Below, piece after piece: positions 26,764-50,233 of a stretch of 64,000 bases of DNA. The position numbers and the translations under genes are program-made. Within the stretch, counting starts at the first letter, position 1, and each line of letters starts with the position of its first letter. This DNA comes from Pycnococcus provasolii (Eukaryota; Chlorophyta; Pseudoscourfieldiophyceae; Pseudoscourfieldiales; Pycnococcaceae). The stretch lies in NCBI GenBank assembly GCA_938743325.2, contig OW568897.1, forward strand, positions 248,001 through 312,000, read 5' to 3'. The notes under the pieces were generated by a model, which worked only from the letters and a program-made list of their open reading frames with translations, was not told where the DNA came from and ran no database searches.

Positions 26764-28320
26764 ATGTCGTCCGGGACGTCTCCGTCTCCGTCTCTGTCCA
26801 CGTTGGACTTAGTGAACGACGTCTTCAACTACGCATCCTTACTTGGATTCCTGCTGCTCTTATCGTTCTTCCTCTACCACTACTCCTTCAAGAGGTGCAA
26901 GTGGGAAGTCATATTCGTATGCGCGACTAGTTTCATCTTAAGTGGTATTTACCACGTGCTTGGAAACCACGTACCCGCGCGAATTCGGGTGGAAGGTATG
27001 AAAGAAGGACGCAGTGTGCCGTGGGTAAGACTCGCGGGGTACCTCATAACGTGCCCTGTGCTGCTCTTACACCTCTCCAACCTCAGAGGAGAGGCGAACT
27101 ACGACACGTTCAGGGCCATGCAACTCGTCGGAGTCTTCCAGTGCGTCACGCTATGCGGCCTGACGGCGGCCATGTGCATAGACGACGCTCACAAGGCGTT
27201 CTTCCACCTGCTTGGCGGATGCTTCGCCATGTTCCTCTTCTGGCGAGTTCGACAAATCTTTGTCAAGGCTTTCAAAGACTTCCCTGAGGAGGCGCGCGGG
27301 CACCTCTACGTGTTGATGTTCTGCTTCTTCGGTGGGTGGGGTGGCTTCGGCCTGACGTTCAACCTCGGGCCGGAAGGCTGGGCGCTGATTAACCCCGTCG
27401 CGCACAACATCATCGTGCGCATTCTCGACATCATCACGAAGCACGTCTATGCCGCCGTCGGATGGAGCCTGCGATGGCGCATTCTGTACCCGCTCGCCGA
27501 GATGGGCATCATCTCCCAAACGAGCAAGGGATTCGTGGACTCGAGCAAGGGTGAGATCCGACCAAAAGTGCTATTCATCGGCCCAGCTGCGAGCGCAAAC
27601 GCCGTGGTGTCTTTCTGGCAAAAGAGGTTTTCAGCATGCGGAATGAACGTCGTTTTCAGGAAAACCATCGCGTCGGCGATGCAGACGCTGAGAGTCGCGG
27701 AGCCGTGCGAGTACGCCTTCACGTTCGTGGATGTCAAGTTCGTCCAGAAGCACGAGACGGAGTTCTTCATGCCGCTCATTCGCCAGTTCCCGATCGTGGT
27801 GTATGCTAAGTCTCGCGAGGAGGCGAACTCTGAAATTCTCCATACCGTAGACGACATGATGGTTGCGCCTTTCCGAGAGCACGATGTGAGTACTGTGGCA
27901 AAGTACTGGGTGATTAAATGGCACGGCAAGCGCAAAAGGGCTGGGTTGAGCACGGTGAACGATTCCTTCATTGAGCAGATGAATGAGGGAGATGTGGAGC
28001 ATGAACCGTCAGAGCGCGTTCAGGATTCTTCCCGTGACTTGACGGTTGACAAAACACGCGACTCAGTGAACAGCGACGTGACTCCAGGGTCGATACGAGG
28101 ATCCAGCTTGTGGCGCAGCCCGAGCATGACAAACATCGAGCGGCTCATGTTTTCGGATGCGAGGGAGTTGGACGCGAGTCAATTGCACCTCGACTATAAT
28201 TCCTCTGAAGACGATGTCGAGCAGGGAAAGCGTTCGTTCCAGGCGAGTGTGGTCAATGAGAAGAATGACGGATCGAACTCATCCTTCCTTTTTCCTGTGA
28301 GTCATAGGCCGAAGAAGTAA
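26764..28320 (+). CDS. channelrhodopsin with receiver-like C-terminal domain
   Basis: 518 residues. Seven membrane segments span about residues 24-242, and the rest is cytosolic. TM3 (VPWVRLAGYLITCPVLLLHLSNLRG) aligns directly with the Chlamydomonas ChR2 TM3. The retinal-binding lysine is K226 in DIITKHV, and TM6 keeps GGWGGFG...NLGPEG. Against ChR2, the counterion Glu123 is Gly92, Glu90 is Ser56, Glu97 is Tyr63, Glu101 is Gly67, Glu83 is Val49 and Asp156 is Phe125. Asp253 (D222), Cys128 (C97), His134 (H103) and Glu82 (E48) are kept. So it is a light-gated channel family member, probably at the eyespot, with pore chemistry that argues against proton or cation conduction. Residues 268-385 look like a degenerate response-regulator fold. 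The rest of the tail is Ser/Asp-rich. Confidence 0.9.
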   Translation: MSSGTSPSPSLSTLDLVNDVFNYASLLGFLLLLSFFLYHYSFKRCKWEVIFVCATSFILSGIYHVLGNHVPARIRVEGMKEGRSVPWVRLAGYLITCPVLLLHLSNLRGEANYDTFRAMQLVGVFQCVTLCGLTAAMCIDDAHKAFFHLLGGCFAMFLFWRVRQIFVKAFKDFPEEARGHLYVLMFCFFGGWGGFGLTFNLGPEGWALINPVAHNIIVRILDIITKHVYAAVGWSLRWRILYPLAEMGIISQTSKGFVDSSKGEIRPKVLFIGPAASANAVVSFWQKRFSACGMNVVFRKTIASAMQTLRVAEPCEYAFTFVDVKFVQKHETEFFMPLIRQFPIVVYAKSREEANSEILHTVDDMMVAPFREHDVSTVAKYWVIKWHGKRKRAGLSTVNDSFIEQMNEGDVEHEPSERVQDSSRDLTVDKTRDSVNSDVTPGSIRGSSLWRSPSMTNIERLMFSDARELDASQLHLDYNSSEDDVEQGKRSFQASVVNEKNDGSNSSFLFPVSHRPKK

Positions 28321-29945: not shown

Positions 29946-31040
29946 TTACAAGATGCGCACCTCAGTAATGAACCGCGTGCCGTTGAGCTCACCTAAGCGC
30001 GACGCATCGGTAGGTGCTTGGCCGTCGCCGTTCCAGCCCCAGCACGCGACGCTCCCGTCGGCTCGCAATGCCAACGAGTGTCCACAGCCCGCGGCGACAG
30101 CTACGAAGTCGCCCTCCACACCAGCGCGAGGCGCTTCGCCGTGGTAGTCCCCTCCCCAGCACGCGACGCTCCCGTCGGCTCGCAATGCCAACGAGTGATA
30201 GTAACCCGCGGCGACCGCTACGAAGTCGCCCTCCACGCCGGCGGGAGGCGCTTGGCCGAGGTCATTGGCACCCCAGCACGCGACGCTCCCGTCGGCTCGC
30301 AGCGCCAACGAGTGTTCATCGCCCGCGGCGACCGCTACGAAGTCGCCCTCCACGCCGGCGGGAGGCGCTTGGCCGAGGTCATTGGCACCCCAGCACGCGA
30401 CGCTCCCGTCGGCTCGCACTGCCAACGAGTGATCACCGCCCGCGGCGACCGCTACGAAGTCGCCCTCCACACCAGCGGGAGGCGCTTCGCCGTCATCGTA
30501 CTCACCCCAGCACGCGACGCTCCCGTCGGCTCGCAATGCCATTGAGTGTTCTCTGCCCGCGGCGACCGCTACGAAGTCGCCCTCCACACCAGCGGGAGGC
30601 GCTTGGCCGTCATCGTTATCACCCCAGCACGCGACGCTCCCGTCGGCTCGCAGTGCCATTGAGTGTTCACCGCCCGCGGCGACCGCTACGAAGTCGCCCT
30701 CCACGCCAGCGGGAGGCGCCTGGTCGAAGTAGTTGGCACCCCAGCACGCGACGCTCCCGTCGGCTCGCAGTGCCAACGAGTGACTCAGACCCGCAGTAAT
30801 CACGGCGTTTGCCCTCGCGCGCCGAATGCGCCTTTCTTGAACGGCGGCGATTCGCCGCGGCCTGTGCACGGTGACGAGCCAGTCGAGCCATACGGCGATG
30901 GCTTTGTCCTTCAGGCTCAGCAGCAGGTGGTTGTTGTGTGACGCTGAACAACTTGGTGGGACATTCATGTCCACGGGCATGACGTTCATGACACGCTGGG
31001 CAAAAGCAAAATAAAAACGCCCGAGGACAATTCTAACCAT
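29946..31040 (-). CDS. RCC1-like seven-repeat propeller protein (39-residue units)
   Basis: 364 residues from ATG 31040; the frame upstream has only TTG. After a helical, basic N-terminus (about 1-85) come seven near-identical units of about 39 residues: SLALRADGSVACWG-x5-GQAPPAGVEGDFVAVAAGxxH. Seven such blades would make one closed RCC1/BLIP-II-type beta-propeller. The units are shorter than classic RCC1 repeats (50-52 residues) and resemble the compact RCC1-like repeats common in bacterial proteins. There is no catalytic domain. A protein-binding scaffold is the safest call. The repeats are almost identical at the DNA level, so they were homogenised recently. Confidence 0.7.
   Translation of the reverse strand: MVRIVLGRFYFAFAQRVMNVMPVDMNVPPSCSASHNNHLLLSLKDKAIAVWLDWLVTVHRPRRIAAVQERRIRRARANAVITAGLSHSLALRADGSVACWGANYFDQAPPAGVEGDFVAVAAGGEHSMALRADGSVACWGDNDDGQAPPAGVEGDFVAVAAGREHSMALRADGSVACWGEYDDGEAPPAGVEGDFVAVAAGGDHSLAVRADGSVACWGANDLGQAPPAGVEGDFVAVAAGDEHSLALRADGSVACWGANDLGQAPPAGVEGDFVAVAAGYYHSLALRADGSVACWGGDYHGEAPRAGVEGDFVAVAAGCGHSLALRADGSVACWGWNGDGQAPTDASRLGELNGTRFITEVRIL
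30020..30800 (-). repeat. 117-bp tandem repeat in RCC1-like gene
   Basis: Seven head-to-tail units of 117 bp with the common core GTCGCGTGCTGGGG (minus strand) and near-identical flanks. The variable part is about 15 bp after each core. Confidence 0.9.
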
Positions 31041-31192
31041 GAAGGGTAGCCGAAACCCCGAACCCAAACCCCGAACCCCGAACCCCGAACTCGCTATACC
31101 TATCCCGCTAACCCTAACCCTAATCGTCTCTCTCCAAGGTCGTTCGCCTTGACGAGCTCGTTCTCATTCGGAAAAAAAACAACGGTTCTGTC
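31041..31192. promoter_or_regulatory. short divergent promoter with both repeat motifs
   Basis: 152 bases between two starts. It contains four AACCCCGAA motifs (31054, 31067, 31074, 31081) and CTAACCCTAACCCTAA at 31108-31123. This is the clearest case of the two motifs side by side. Confidence 0.6.
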
Positions 31193-33175: not shown

Positions 33176-34876
33176 TTACATGTTCCTGCGCGCACGCACG
33201 CGCCTCCCGGGCTGCGGCCACGCCTCCCGCACCTCCTCCATGGCGCCGCGGATGCCCTTGAGAAGTGCCTGATTTGGATTCAAGTGCGTGTGCGCCAACT
33301 GCAAATTCGTCTTGGGCGATCGCGAATTTCCTTCGCCGAGCCAGCGCTCGATCGCCGATCGCTCATACGAGTGTCCGTCGGCGGCGCAGACTGGATCCGT
33401 CATGATGGCCTGCGTGATGGGACACACATACTCGTCGTGCTCATGAGCAAGGGCGTCGCATATGCGGCGATCGATCTCCGCGTCCGCCGCGTCACGTAGG
33501 CGAGATGCGAAATTTGCGAGCTGGCCGAGTTCCTCGTCGCTTCGATCTTCGATGTGAAACGATTCGACCGTCGGAATGGCACTGCTTTGGTGTACGTCGA
33601 TGGCGATAGGAGGAAGGGCGTCGACGCGCTTCGGCGTGTGCTGGTTGTCCTCATCGCCGTGCCCGAGCCTGCCGTATGCACCACGTCCCCAGGTGTACAC
33701 AGCGCCGTCCGACGTCAACGCGGCTGTGTGGTTGTGCCCGCAACCTAACGCGCGCACGCTCACGCTCGCCAACGCGTCGACGCGCTTCGGCGTGTGCTGG
33801 CTGGACGTGTTGCCGTGCCCGAGCTTGCCGTCGTCACCACGTCCCCACGTGTACACCGTGCCGTCCGACGTCAACGCGGCAGTGTGCCTCATGCCGCAAG
33901 CCAAAGCGCGTACGCTCACGCTCGCCAACGCCTCGACGCGCTTCGGCGTGTGGTGGCTGGATGTGTTGCCGTGCCCGAGCCGGCCGTCGTCACCACGTCC
34001 CCACGTGTACACCGCGCCGTCCGACGTCACCGCGGCCGTGTAAAAACCGCCGCAAGCCAACGCGCGTACGCTCACGCTCGCCAACGCCTCGACGCGCTTC
34101 GGCGTGAGTTGGTCGTCCGTGTCGCCGTGCCCGAGCTGGCCGTGATCACATTCTCCCCACGTGTACACCGCGCCGTCCGACGTCAAGGCAGCCGTGTGGA
34201 AGTCGCCGCAAGCCAACGCGCGTACGCACGTGCTCGCCAACGCGTCGACGCGCTTCGGCGTGTGCGGGTCGGACGCGTCGCCGTGCCCGAGCTGGCCGTG
34301 TTTACCACGTCCCCACGTGTACACCGCGCCGTCCGACGTCACCACGGCCGTGTGGAAAGCGCCGCAAGCCAACGCGCGTACGCTCACGCTCGCCAACGCG
34401 TCGACGCGCTTCGGCGTGTGTTGCCGGGATATGTCGTCGCCGTGCCCGAGCTCGCCGTCGTCACCACGTCCCCACGTGTACACCGCGCCGTCCGACGTCA
34501 CCACAACCGTGTGGAAAACGCCGCAAGCCAGCGCGCGCACGCTCACGCTCGCCAACGCCTCGACACGCTTCGGCGTGTGCGGGTCGGACGCGTCGCCGTG
34601 CCCGAACTCGCCGTGTTCCCCACGTCCCCACGTGTACACCGCGCCGTCCGACGTCACCACAGCCGTGTGGAAGTCGCCGCAAGCCAACGATGCTCGCTCG
34701 ATGCCGGCATCCTCCACCATCTGCGGACGATTGTTCGCGTCATTAATCGCGTTGTCGTTTGCGGCGGCGGCTGACGTCGACGCGCCGGCGTGCGTCCTGC
34801 GGCGTGCGGGCATATGTATGCGAGCGGGAACGAGAATGGGGAGGGGGGAGAAAGATTCCCGTTCGGACAGACTCAT
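33176..34876 (-). CDS. RCC1-repeat and U-box fusion protein (probable E3 ubiquitin ligase)
   Basis: 566 residues. Seven RCC1 repeats (about 58-425; unit ...VRALACGxxHTAAVTSDGAVYTWGRGxxGxLGHG...) form one beta-propeller. A linker leads to a U-box at about 490-550 (EYVCPITQAIMTDPVCAADGHSYERSAIERWL), the RING-like fold that binds E2 enzymes. So the propeller probably selects the substrate and the U-box drives ubiquitin transfer. RCC1 paired with U-box rather than HECT is not a combination I know as common. The start at 34876 is only 43 bases from the start of the anoctamin on the other strand; ATG 34813 is an alternative. Repeats are highly homogenised. Confidence 0.8.
   Translation of the reverse strand: MSLSERESFSPLPILVPARIHMPARRRTHAGASTSAAAANDNAINDANNRPQMVEDAGIERASLACGDFHTAVVTSDGAVYTWGRGEHGEFGHGDASDPHTPKRVEALASVSVRALACGVFHTVVVTSDGAVYTWGRGDDGELGHGDDISRQHTPKRVDALASVSVRALACGAFHTAVVTSDGAVYTWGRGKHGQLGHGDASDPHTPKRVDALASTCVRALACGDFHTAALTSDGAVYTWGECDHGQLGHGDTDDQLTPKRVEALASVSVRALACGGFYTAAVTSDGAVYTWGRGDDGRLGHGNTSSHHTPKRVEALASVSVRALACGMRHTAALTSDGTVYTWGRGDDGKLGHGNTSSQHTPKRVDALASVSVRALGCGHNHTAALTSDGAVYTWGRGAYGRLGHGDEDNQHTPKRVDALPPIAIDVHQSSAIPTVESFHIEDRSDEELGQLANFASRLRDAADAEIDRRICDALAHEHDEYVCPITQAIMTDPVCAADGHSYERSAIERWLGEGNSRSPKTNLQLAHTHLNPNQALLKGIRGAMEEVREAWPQPGRRVRARRNM
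33600..34700 (-). repeat. 156-159-bp tandem repeat in the RCC1-U-box gene
   Basis: Seven head-to-tail units; most share long identical stretches around the codons for TSDGAVYTWGRG and HTPKRV. The antisense frames are open as a by-product. Confidence 0.85.
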
Positions 34877-34919
34877 TTTCCCAACTCCTGTAAGGTAAGG
34901 TGCCTTGAATCAAACCAAC

Positions 34920-37103
34920 ATGGCGCCGCTCGCCGTCGTCTCCCTGTCATGTTCATGTTCGGAAGTCTCTGGTGAATCTATCTCTAATATTCTCGACGAA
35001 CTGAGAAAAGCGCAGTCTCTTTTCGACGTTTACGAGCCAGTTAAGTCAGGTGTCCTGCTCATTGCTTTCAAGTCAGCACACGCGGCTGGAAGCTTTTTCG
35101 AAGACGCGAACTTGCACAAAGTTCTGCGAGCTTCAGGGGCACTCGCGCCGTTCTCGTGGGACGCAAGAGCGGCATTCGCAAGCACGCCCAAGCCGGCTGT
35201 GCACGCCGTGAACGACGACGTGTTCGCGGAACAGGCGAAAGATGCGTGCACGTTTGCGCACTACGAACAGGCCCTGGCGCTTGACCACGCGCTCAGAAAA
35301 AATAAGACGGTCGCAGACTTGCTCGCCGAAGGACGCGTGCAGCTGACGCACTTGCACGACGCAAGGACCGCGGCGGACGTGCTGCGCCTACTCACCGCAG
35401 GATCCGGTATTCAGTCGGGAAAAAACGAAAGGGCGGCACTCGACGCGACGTGCAACTACTTTGGACCACGTATCGCGCTGTACTTTGCGTTCCTCAGACA
35501 CTACACTCGCTTCCTCATACTTCCAGCCGCCGTGGGACTCGTTCAAGTTGTCGCTGGTCGCAATACAGGCAACGCCGAAGATGTAGGAGCCATCGTCGTC
35601 GCACTCGTCGTCATCAATGTCGTTTGGGCGTGCGCATTCACGCGCTGCCTTCCGCGGCACCTTCACCTGCTCCTTAGCCGGTGGGGGTACAATGCACACG
35701 CCAGAAAGCTGCTAGATCAGACGACGGTGATCGCCCCAGGCGAGGTGAGTATGCGGCTGAATCATGTCGGCGAGCTGGAGTTATCGATTCGGATGGCTCT
35801 CGCGTGGATGGCCATCGCACTCAGCCTAGTGCTTGTCGTTGCCCCCGTCGCGTTCCTGTTCTTCTCACTCGTGTACGCGTCGTCAACGGGAGAGATGGGA
35901 CGCTTTTACCGGATTATCGTTGGTCTCGACGATACGCCTCGTGGTGTGTCACCACACGCATTTGTCGCGCGCCGCCTGTACGAGACGAGCTGGCTTGGCA
36001 TGCACCGCGACGATCGATTCGAGGATGCGTCGTGCGTGCTTAGCGCGGGAGGTGCGTGCTACCTAAACGTGAGTGACGCGGCCCTCCTTATCATCGTCCA
36101 GCTTCAGGCGCAGGCGGTGGTGCAGCTGAACAACTTTGGCGCCAGGCTTGCGCACAGCGTGTCGAAGTTCGAGATGCACCGTAGCGAGAGCGACCTTGCG
36201 GAGGCGCGCGTCATCAAGTCGATCGCATTTTACCTTCTCAACGCCTTCGCTGGTCCTTTCTACTACGCATTCGTGCTGCGCGACTTCGAGCTGCTTCGCA
36301 AGTACCTCGCCGCTCGTCTTCTTACCGCGCAAATCACTGGCACGATCATGGAGGTAGTGATGCCATACATCATGTACAAGATTGAACGCTTCAAGGCACG
36401 ATCAAGTCGCATCGAGCGCACGGACACAATCAAGGCTGGTCAGCTTGGATACACGAGCACGGAGGCGGCAATGGCGGCGGTTCACAGCCTTCGTCCGAGT
36501 CACTACCAGCAGATGCAGCCGGAGTATCTGTCGAGCGCGGTTCCCGATAGCCGCGAGGGTGGAGACTTCGACGACCTGCTCGAGATCATGCTGCAGTACG
36601 CCAACAGCGTGCTTTTCTTCCCCATATACCCGATGGCTGCTGTGCTTGCATTCGCGAATAACGTCGTCGAGGTGCGCAGCGATGGCTTCCGCCTCTGCCG
36701 CTTGCTTAGGTACCCGCTTCATGTGCAGAGAGGTCCTCAAGGCATTGCTGCGTGGGTGACAAGCTTTCAGGTTGTAAGCTGGTTGAGCGTGCTGATAAAC
36801 TGCGGTTTGCTTCTCGTGCACGTGTCGGAGACTTCCGAACGCAAGGGCAGCACGGCGTCCCTTCTCGCGCCGGTGGGTCTTGAGCACGCGCTCGGTGCGG
36901 CGTGCCTTGCGATCTGCGCGATGGTGCCTACGACCCCAGAGGCTGTGGAACGCCTCGACCTCGTGAGAGAGCGCATGGGCGCGCACTCTGACACGTCGTG
37001 GCTTTCTCACACGTCTTTCGGGCGGGTGATCTCGGATGGATATTCTTCCCCGCGATCCGCTTCGCCAGCCAGCTCCTCGGACATAACGAAGAAGACGCTG
37101 TAA
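34920..37103 (+). CDS. anoctamin/TMEM16-family membrane protein
   Basis: 727 residues from ATG 34920 (upstream frame has only TTG). An N-terminal cytosolic domain of about 185 residues is followed by the anoctamin membrane core with 8-10 helices: YFGPRIALYFAFLRHYTRFL at the first helix, later FYLLNAFAGPFYYAFVLRD, and the family block QYANSVLFFPIYPMAAVLAFANNVVEVRSDGFRLC. TMEM16 proteins are Ca2+-activated chloride channels or lipid scramblases; land plants and fungi (Ist2) have one or few. Whether this one moves ions or lipids cannot be told. The Ca2+-binding acidic residues were not checked one by one. The tail is Ser-rich. Confidence 0.85.
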   Translation: MAPLAVVSLSCSCSEVSGESISNILDELRKAQSLFDVYEPVKSGVLLIAFKSAHAAGSFFEDANLHKVLRASGALAPFSWDARAAFASTPKPAVHAVNDDVFAEQAKDACTFAHYEQALALDHALRKNKTVADLLAEGRVQLTHLHDARTAADVLRLLTAGSGIQSGKNERAALDATCNYFGPRIALYFAFLRHYTRFLILPAAVGLVQVVAGRNTGNAEDVGAIVVALVVINVVWACAFTRCLPRHLHLLLSRWGYNAHARKLLDQTTVIAPGEVSMRLNHVGELELSIRMALAWMAIALSLVLVVAPVAFLFFSLVYASSTGEMGRFYRIIVGLDDTPRGVSPHAFVARRLYETSWLGMHRDDRFEDASCVLSAGGACYLNVSDAALLIIVQLQAQAVVQLNNFGARLAHSVSKFEMHRSESDLAEARVIKSIAFYLLNAFAGPFYYAFVLRDFELLRKYLAARLLTAQITGTIMEVVMPYIMYKIERFKARSSRIERTDTIKAGQLGYTSTEAAMAAVHSLRPSHYQQMQPEYLSSAVPDSREGGDFDDLLEIMLQYANSVLFFPIYPMAAVLAFANNVVEVRSDGFRLCRLLRYPLHVQRGPQGIAAWVTSFQVVSWLSVLINCGLLLVHVSETSERKGSTASLLAPVGLEHALGAACLAICAMVPTTPEAVERLDLVRERMGAHSDTSWLSHTSFGRVISDGYSSPRSASPASSSDITKKTL

Positions 37104-48895: not shown

Positions 48896-50233
48896 ATGCT
48901 GCTCATGAACAACATGCGCACCACCACCACCACCACTAACATTGTTGGTGTCACACGTGTGCATTCCTCCTCATCTCATTGTTGTGTCTTTGTTAGGAGG
49001 AGTCGCATCAGCATCATACGACCTTGTTGTACTTTTAGTAGCTGTTGGAGTCGTCGTCGAGTTCTGATCACGCCGTTCATAAGGAGTCGACGACATCAGT
49101 CATGTTTTAGACAAACACGCCACCTCGGGAAAGTGCGAGCTCGCAACTGGAAATCAAATGGCAACGGCAATGGCGATCAAAATACCTCACCCTCGGAGGC
49201 GGAAGACGACGACTCGCTCATCGACGTTCCTCTGCCGCTTGGACTCGCGGAGTGGGAGACGAACGTCAAGGAAGGTGCGCGGCCGTACAGGCGTGTGCGC
49301 TTCGACAACGAAAGGTGGAAGAGACACAGATCCATAGGACGGTACTGGAGACACATCGCAACCATGCCGTCGTCGCGCGTCGTCAGAGGACTGCTCGCGC
49401 CGTGCTCGTTCACGTCGCTCATCGCGTACGCAGCGTACGTCTTCCAGCCCATTGAGCCGCTCGGACTCACGTCCACCCTGCCGTTTGAACTCACGTCGCC
49501 GCTCTTGGGACTGCTCCTCGTCTTCCGGACCAACGAGGCTATGGCGAGGTGGCTGAGGGCGCACGACGCGTGGGCGCGAGTCGTCTCCAGGAACCTCGAG
49601 GCGCGCGACGTCATCGCCACGCACGTCGAGGACGACGAGATGCGCGAGTGCGCAGGAAGACACCTACTCGCTCACGCGTCAGCGCTCGCCGCGCGCTACC
49701 GCACGAACGGCGAACGCGCCGTGCACGACGACGAGTGGGCGAACGTTCTAATGCCGGACGAACGCGAGGCTATGGAGTCGGCGCGTGAGAATCGACCCGC
49801 GCACGCGCTACGCGTCGTCAGGAGCGTCGTGAGCGCGTCCGACGCGCCGATGCACGCACAGGTGCGCATCGCCGACTGCATCGCCACGCTGACGGATGCG
49901 TGCACGGAGTGCGACCAGCTCACGTCGACGCCCATCCCGCTCTCTTATACGCGGCACACTTCGCGTTTCTTGCTTCTCTGGTTGTCTCTACTTCCATTCC
50001 CTCTCGCCCTCTCTCTTGGCATCGCCGCCGTTCCTGCGACGTTTTTCATCGCCATCTTGCTTCTCGGCGTGGAGGAGATTGGCGTGCAGATCGAGGAGCC
50101 GCTGAGCGTGGCTGACATCGAGGGATTCGTCGCGGAGCTGCACAAGGAGTCGGCGGAGGCGGATGCGCAGCGGGAGCGCGTCAATGAGCTTATCATGAGA
50201 AAGATGAAGACTTCACAGGCAGCAATAAAGTGA
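48896..50233 (+). CDS. bestrophin-like chloride channel (VCCN type, plastid)
   Basis: 445 residues. The first 90 residues are Arg/Ser/Thr-rich and suit a plastid transit peptide. The core has the bestrophin/VCCN blocks: a start RFDNERWKRHRSIGRYWRH, the pore helix PFELTSPLLGLLLVFRTNEAMARWLRAHDAW, and a C-terminal GVEEIGVQIEEPLS. Four or so membrane helices are visible. In Arabidopsis VCCN1 sits in thylakoids and lets chloride into the lumen, tuning the proton-motive force after light changes. Plastid place is inferred from the N-terminus and family. It shares a promoter with plastid IF-2. Confidence 0.85.
   Translation: MLLMNNMRTTTTTTNIVGVTRVHSSSSHCCVFVRRSRISIIRPCCTFSSCWSRRRVLITPFIRSRRHQSCFRQTRHLGKVRARNWKSNGNGNGDQNTSPSEAEDDDSLIDVPLPLGLAEWETNVKEGARPYRRVRFDNERWKRHRSIGRYWRHIATMPSSRVVRGLLAPCSFTSLIAYAAYVFQPIEPLGLTSTLPFELTSPLLGLLLVFRTNEAMARWLRAHDAWARVVSRNLEARDVIATHVEDDEMRECAGRHLLAHASALAARYRTNGERAVHDDEWANVLMPDEREAMESARENRPAHALRVVRSVVSASDAPMHAQVRIADCIATLTDACTECDQLTSTPIPLSYTRHTSRFLLLWLSLLPFPLALSLGIAAVPATFFIAILLLGVEEIGVQIEEPLSVADIEGFVAELHKESAEADAQRERVNELIMRKMKTSQAAIK

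Follow-up and report, generated by a model that had tools for sequence, protein, structure and literature searches.

A channelrhodopsin gene of Pycnococcus provasolii with glycine at the counterion site and a replaced central gate: a candidate anion channel

The window, that is the whole stretch of 64,000 nucleotides analysed here (C37:248001-312000 of a 32.3-Mb assembly of 46 contigs), carries a nuclear gene predicted to encode a channelrhodopsin, a known kind of light-gated channel. The product is probably a light-gated anion (chloride) channel of the prasinophyte anion channelrhodopsin (ACR) type, to which it is likened by published residues, and it belongs to a three-gene subfamily that also includes the paralogs C18 and C4. 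How individual residues control cation versus anion selectivity in channelrhodopsins is a major problem still awaiting resolution, according to the text of PMC12448745. The trio provides natural variants altered at nearly all of the customary acidic sites and at every position of the central-gate triad. The same genome also encodes C9, a channelrhodopsin of the cation type, and C39, an intermediate form, and so supplies its own set bearing on the charge rule. If the trio is anion-selective, this would bear on the use of anion channels by a green alga for light orientation; according to the text of PMC9700795, freshwater Chlamydomonas lost its photoresponses when ChR2 was converted to an anion channel.

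Gene and predicted product

The gene is a single open frame at 26764-28320 (+ strand, as are all features of it given below), running from ATG to TAA with no internal stops and encoding an intact protein of 518 amino acids plus stop. The flanking genes in the window are eukaryotic nuclear genes, including those for phosphoglucomutase, Rpc34, RCC1 repeats, MCM6, cullin, and kinesin. The seven-helix rhodopsin domain covers approximately residues 21-245 (26824-27498), as delimited by the Pfam Bac_rhodopsin match (residues 23-239, E=1.6e-24) and by the phmmer alignment to KnChR (30-240). A phmmer search of the PDB gave 107 matches at E<=1, and among the best 60 the leading entries are KnChR (1.2e-28), iC++ (7.2e-27), and CrChR2 (5.6e-26), with Chrimson (4.7e-17) and GtACR1 (1.9e-10) further down; bacteriorhodopsin-I entries appear only after the channelrhodopsins, at 1.6e-8 and weaker. 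The 12 top rows consist of KnChR, ChR2/C1C2-type proteins, iC++, Chrimson, and GtACR1, and no prasinophyte ACR is found among the best 60 of the 107. Over its rhodopsin domain the protein is 31% identical to KnChR, 29% to CrChR2, and 21% to GtACR1. The protein possesses both the retinal lysine of TM7 (K226) and the TCP motif of TM3 (T96-C97-P98). The Pfam match, the KnChR match, and K226 uphold the initial annotation of this frame as a channelrhodopsin.

Residues at functional sites

Residues were compared in an 11-sequence alignment using CrChR2 numbering. In TM2 (residues 45-68; 26896-26967, placed by alignment) E82 is kept as E48, while E83 is replaced by V49, E90 by S56, K93 by L59, E97 by Y63, and E101 by G67. 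Four of the five glutamates of TM2 and the TM2-TM3 region (E83, E90, E97, and E101) have therefore been replaced, all by neutral residues, and E48 is the only one left, in agreement with the initial claim that most TM2 carboxylates are gone. In TM3 (residues 85-107; 27016-27084, placed by alignment and DNA) R120 corresponds to R89, E123 to G92 (GGG, 27037-27039), T127-C128 to T96-C97, and H134 to H103. The alignment places F125 (27136-27138) at the D156 site, so that the D156-C128 pair is without its acid; T159 corresponds to V128, P227 to G196, and R268 to R237. TM6 carries W192 and F195-G196 (27337-27351, placed by alignment), the glycine occupying the conserved Pro186 site of bacteriorhodopsin (BR) as does G186 of MsACR1. 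Glycine at this site (CrChR2 P227) is found in all three members of the trio versus none of the eight other sequences in the table. In TM7 (27427-27444, placed by alignment and DNA) the counterion D253 is kept as D222, S256 corresponds to T225, the retinal lysine K257 to K226 (AAG, 27439-27441), and N258 to H227. In TM1, S63 corresponds to F29; this assignment, made by an ungapped count, is less certain than any of the others.

The equivalences first proposed (E90 to S56, E97 to Y63, E101 to G67, E123 to G92, and K226 as the retinal lysine) all proved right. The description of the protein as lacking the counterion holds for the Glu123 site, now G92, but not for the second Schiff-base counterion, Asp253, which is kept as D222; the Schiff base is therefore not left without a counterion.

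The Ser63-Glu90-Asn258 central gate of CrChR2, a triad described in the text of PMC11931529 as highly conserved among channelrhodopsins, is fully replaced by F29, S56, and H227. Judged from the sequences compared, this replaced gate with its His227 is a more unusual feature than Gly92. The compared stretches of TM1, 2, 3, and 7 contain two acidic residues (D/E) in the window protein, three each in C18, C4, GtACR1, and iC++, five in KnChR, seven each in CrChR2, C1C2, C9, and C39, and eight in Chrimson.

Paralogs and conservation

The genome contains at least five rhodopsin genes (six matches from the family search), the models of C4 and C39 having been spliced by hand. C18 is 73-75% identical to the window protein over the rhodopsin domain and agrees with it residue for residue at CrChR2 positions 63, 82, 83, 90, 97, 101, 123, 156, 227, 253, 256, and 258. 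C18 and C4 together follow the pattern of the window protein: E82 is kept; E83 is Val; E90 is Ser (window and C18) or Gly (C4); E97 is Tyr or Ala; E101 and E123 are Gly; D156 is Phe; P227 is Gly; S256 is Thr; and N258 is His. Glycine at the counterion site is no lone oddity, since four of the five rhodopsins encoded here, namely the trio and C39, have it at the Glu123 position.

Comparison of the window gene with C18 over residues 21-250 gives identities of 77, 90, and 53% at codon positions 1, 2, and 3. TM2, TM3, and TM7 are 69, 84, and 81% conserved; beyond the channel, identity is 41% in a receiver-like region and 44% over 86 aligned residues of the tail. The rhodopsin domain is, by this measure, evidently under purifying selection, and the channel portion is what selection appears to hold. 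An artefact or a decaying gene, with sequencing errors or a loss of function behind the odd residues, is highly improbable: the unusual residues themselves are all that speaks for it, whereas the frame of 518 residues is intact, C18 carries the same residues, and codon position 2 is far better conserved than position 3. The shared residues of C18 taken with the codon-position pattern rule out chance or sequencing error.

The two remaining rhodopsins differ from the trio. C9 (C9:852767-853414) is of the conventional cation type, with E82, E90, E97, E101, E123, D156, and N258 all present and Asp at the R268 site. C39 (about 357300-358730) is a fifth, divergent rhodopsin possessing Asp at Glu90, Glu at Glu97, Gly at Glu123, and Asn at Asp156; TTP replaces TCP in TM3, and Ala precedes the retinal lysine. 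An alanine at this place is the red-shift marker A298 of Chrimson, which was introduced into raACR by mutation (text of PMC11473104).

Phylogenetic position

Trees were constructed from 10, 9, and 8 rows, with iC++ left out as an engineered protein. The window protein, C18, and C4 form one clade in each, with support of 99/99 (10 rows), 100/99 (9 rows), and 100/100 (8 rows). GtACR1 and C39 are long branches; when GtACR1 is removed the trio joins C39 with support of 78/86. Approximately unbiased (AU) tests rejected none of the three placements of the trio as sister to C39, GtACR1, or KnChR (p-AU 0.138, 0.137, and 0.144, respectively). The phylogenetic check proposed at the outset, carried out with 10 sequences, has thus established a distinct clade for the trio but has not settled which known clade it joins. 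Since its neighbors (C39, GtACR1, KnChR) are unsettled, glycine at the counterion site may have arisen once or twice.

Viral and prokaryotic relatives were also sought, although the scans, which used exact short patterns or tblastn on collections with few algal viruses, count as weak negatives. In IMG/VR the window protein gave one pattern match and the C39 protein three, none of them confirmed, and three alignments gave 72, 66, and 16, again with none confirmed. The scan of prokaryote genomes produced 10 pattern matches, none confirmed, and that of phage records no match.

Ion selectivity

A neutral (non-carboxylate) residue at the BR Asp85/CrChR2 Glu123 site is described for all ACRs then known (texts of PMC8406140, PMC8818676, and PMC12448745), and Gly92 conforms to this. 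The remark in the initial annotation that Guillardia ACRs are also non-carboxylate here agrees with Ser97 of GtACR1 and with the rule in known ACRs. ACRs without Glu90 are described for the prasinophyte and Labyrinthulea groups (text of PMC8406140), and the window protein has Ser56. The closest parallels are sought among the prasinophyte ACRs MsACR1, PymeACR1, and Py2087ACR1 (the latter two from Pyramimonas), which are likewise green algal, neutral at the counterion site, and devoid of Glu90, a likeness drawn from published residue descriptions. MsACR1, from Mantoniella squamata, is described as a prasinophyte chloride channel with F185-G186 and D215 (text of PMC11473104), and these are matched by F195-G196 and D222 of the trio. 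Using numbering taken by hand from that text, its retinal-pocket residues T87, W182, F185, G186, and D215 all have counterparts in the window protein; Ser218 differs, being Thr225 here and Thr throughout the trio, which counts against the anion reading.

Comparison with GtACR1 reveals a neutral counterion site (Ser97 versus Gly92), few pore acids (three versus two), and a TM7 Asp counterion in both; the difference lies in the retention by GtACR1 of Glu68 at the Glu90 site and Asn239 at the Asn258 site, with only 21% identity and a phmmer value of 1.9e-10. The tree neither puts the trio beside GtACR1 nor rejects that grouping. According to the text of PMC11931529, the GtACR1 mutants E68Q and N239Q are still anion-selective, so that selectivity for anions does not have to depend on the central gate. 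The engineered chloride channels offer a further comparison, which in the sites affected favors the anion reading. iChloC is altered at E83, E90, E101, D156, and T159, with Arg at Glu90 (text of PMC4595828). All five of these sites differ from CrChR2 in the window protein, as do the four glutamate sites of iC++; E83, E90, and E101 are common to both constructs, D156 and T159 belong to iChloC, and E123 to iC++. The window protein differs in being natural, in carrying V, S, G, F, V, and G at these six sites, and in having also lost E97. The serine at the Glu90 site, in place of the Arg of the engineered chloride channels, counts against the anion reading.

Among single PDB entries KnChR matches best; we take it to be a cation channel, its sequence keeps E90, E97, and E123, and the AU tests did not reject a clade uniting it with the trio. 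These observations favor an alternative in which the protein is a proton or cation channelrhodopsin whose loss of glutamates brought no anion selectivity, as in MsCCR, CsCCR, or NlCCR. KnChR is described as a blue-shifted channelrhodopsin (text of PMC12448745). It is of streptophyte origin, and it and the chlorophyte CrChR2 share with the window protein the TCP motif and the equivalents of R89, D222, and K226; both keep E90, E97, E123, D156, and N258, none of which is retained in the window protein. There are precedents for such an alternative: the ancyromonad NlCCR is described as having a neutral counterion site and no TM2 carboxylates, yet conducting Na+ and not anions (text of PMC12448745), while MsCCR, CsCCR, and CtCCR are described as proton channels (text of PMC8406140), and CCRs with a neutral counterion site include DsChR1 and Chronos (text of PMC8818676). 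As NlCCR conducts Na+ in spite of lacking these carboxylates, sequence does not settle selectivity. MsCCR and CsCCR, which are of prasinophyte origin, resemble the window protein in their neutral counterion site and in non-carboxylate residues at E83, E97, and E101, but the text of PMC8406140 has them keeping both E82 and E90, and the window protein, with E82 kept and Ser56 at Glu90, departs from the CCR pattern, as does the rest of the trio in having lost Glu90. Moreover, the TM2 stretch holds E48 as its only acid, and TM3 has none. We regard a proton or cation channel as unlikely. The view that an anion channel was the simplest prediction stands insofar as this is the best single prediction, with the qualification, drawn from NlCCR, MsCCR, and CsCCR, that selectivity cannot be read from the residue pattern by itself.

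No passage in the literature text searched mentions an ACR with Gly at the counterion site or with His at the Asn258 site; such residues would appear in figures and supplements, which fall outside that text, and hence this is no sign of novelty.

Proposed mechanism

What we infer of retinal binding, photocycle, gating, anion selectivity, and cellular role on the anion-channel reading would run as follows. Retinal on K226 would form a protonated Schiff base stabilized solely by D222 and be isomerized by light; with no carboxylate at G92 to accept the proton, the Schiff base would stay charged. This arrangement, in which D222 is the sole counterion and G92 offers no proton acceptor, is like that of MsACR1 and MerMAID1. 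D215 is given as the putative counterion of MsACR1 (text of PMC11473104); for MerMAID1 the counterion is D210, and its protonated Schiff base is proposed to form part of the route taken by chloride (text of PMC6658528). In the window protein chloride would presumably pass along TM1, 2, 3, and 7, where the Schiff base with its charge, R89, and H227 would make the path neutral to positive; anion flow is in keeping with R89, H227, and the scarcity of acids in the pore. S56 and H227 would stand in for the Glu90-Asn258 part of the central gate. In the cell the protein may serve as a photoreceptor channel beside the cation-type C9, probably for light orientation.

More tentatively, the trio might represent an ACR subfamily defined by a Phe-Ser(Gly)-His central gate and a Gly counterion site, in which a histidine beside the retinal lysine governs gating in place of a carboxylate and could render the chloride conductance pH-dependent; a degenerate receiver would serve as the cytoplasmic module, and three copies would exist beside one cation-type channel.

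Receiver-like region and tail

Downstream of the rhodopsin domain is a receiver-like (pseudo-response-regulator) domain at about residues 267-395 (27562-27948), recognized by a profile of about residues 266-395 built from the three paralogs. It is followed by a tail rich in serine and acids (residues 396-518; 27949-28317), with 22 Ser and 23 D/E among 123 residues. Against the PDB the profile matched 19 sequences at E<=10, the PhoP receiver (3.7e-4) being the sole match below 0.001. By name, two-component proteins account for 17 of the 19 (six response regulators, four KdpE, three AdeR, two histidine kinases, one ETR1, and one mrkE), and the other two (eL30 and a hypothetical protein) are unrelated; the AdeR, mrkE, and ETR1 entries we take to be receivers. 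Alignment of the region with two receivers using hhalign gave a probability of 4.7% and an E value of 0.0085. Pfam found no receiver in the tail pieces of the window protein, C4, or C9, nor did a single-sequence search with the window sequence. In the PhoP alignment the active-site residues are not kept: the acid pair is replaced by G-P, the phosphoacceptor Asp by F, and the Lys by A. Residues 266-395 or thereabouts are thus likely to be receiver-like and not phosphorylatable.

Within this genome phmmer finds the domain in the window gene and C18 only; a receiver-like domain suspected by eye in the tail of C9 was not recovered by phmmer of that tail. Single-sequence AlphaFold models were too poor to use, with a mean pLDDT of 41 for the whole protein and 49.7 for the receiver-like domain. 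A Foldseek search with the latter gave no match at E<=0.001 and is uninformative; methyltransferases and phosphoribosyltransferases head the 50 rows listed, in which receivers occur only at ranks 26 and 49.

The receiver-like profile raises the possibility of a sensory rhodopsin built on a channelrhodopsin fold, with little or no conductance and its output through this domain. The loss of the central-gate triad and of D156, and the bulk of F29 and F125, are consistent with such a protein. There is also a prasinophyte homolog, PymeChR, for which the text of PMC8406140 reports no current and describes it as non-electrogenic. Against this, between the window protein and C18 the receiver-like domain is 41% identical versus 75% for the rhodopsin domain; the faster divergence and the absence of the phosphorylation residues make it a poor output domain. 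TM2, TM3, and TM7, the helices of the channel, are by comparison well conserved, and tails are usual in algal channelrhodopsins. A sensory role with little or no conductance is, in our estimation, improbable. On the anion-channel reading, which we prefer, the receiver-like tail, if real, would more likely be a docking or localization module than a phosphorelay receiver.

Other features of the window and genome

A scan for bacterial-type promoters and terminators and a repeat search of the DNA yielded nothing of use. Two RCC1-repeat genes lie close together at 29946-31067 (-) and 33176-34876 (-), the second with a U-box. Near the channelrhodopsin gene is an anoctamin gene (34905-37103, +; PF04547, 2.7e-64), and a bestrophin gene is located at 48896-50233 (+; PF25539, 6.1e-48). 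These are two further genes of anion-channel families within about 22 kb, which may be a coincidence.

The same genome gave 51 matches to chlorophyll a/b-binding genes, which mark it as that of a green alga. Twelve light-harvesting matches of equal score (92.2 bits) fall in two clusters of six, at C31:133072-142609 and 360395-366434, and represent a recent gene array. The best PDB matches of a light-harvesting protein from C31 are 9vfj LHCI-11 (3e-84) and 7yca (4.5e-81), presumably Euglena and Ostreococcus entries, and these light-harvesting matches suggest a plastid of the prasinophyte type.
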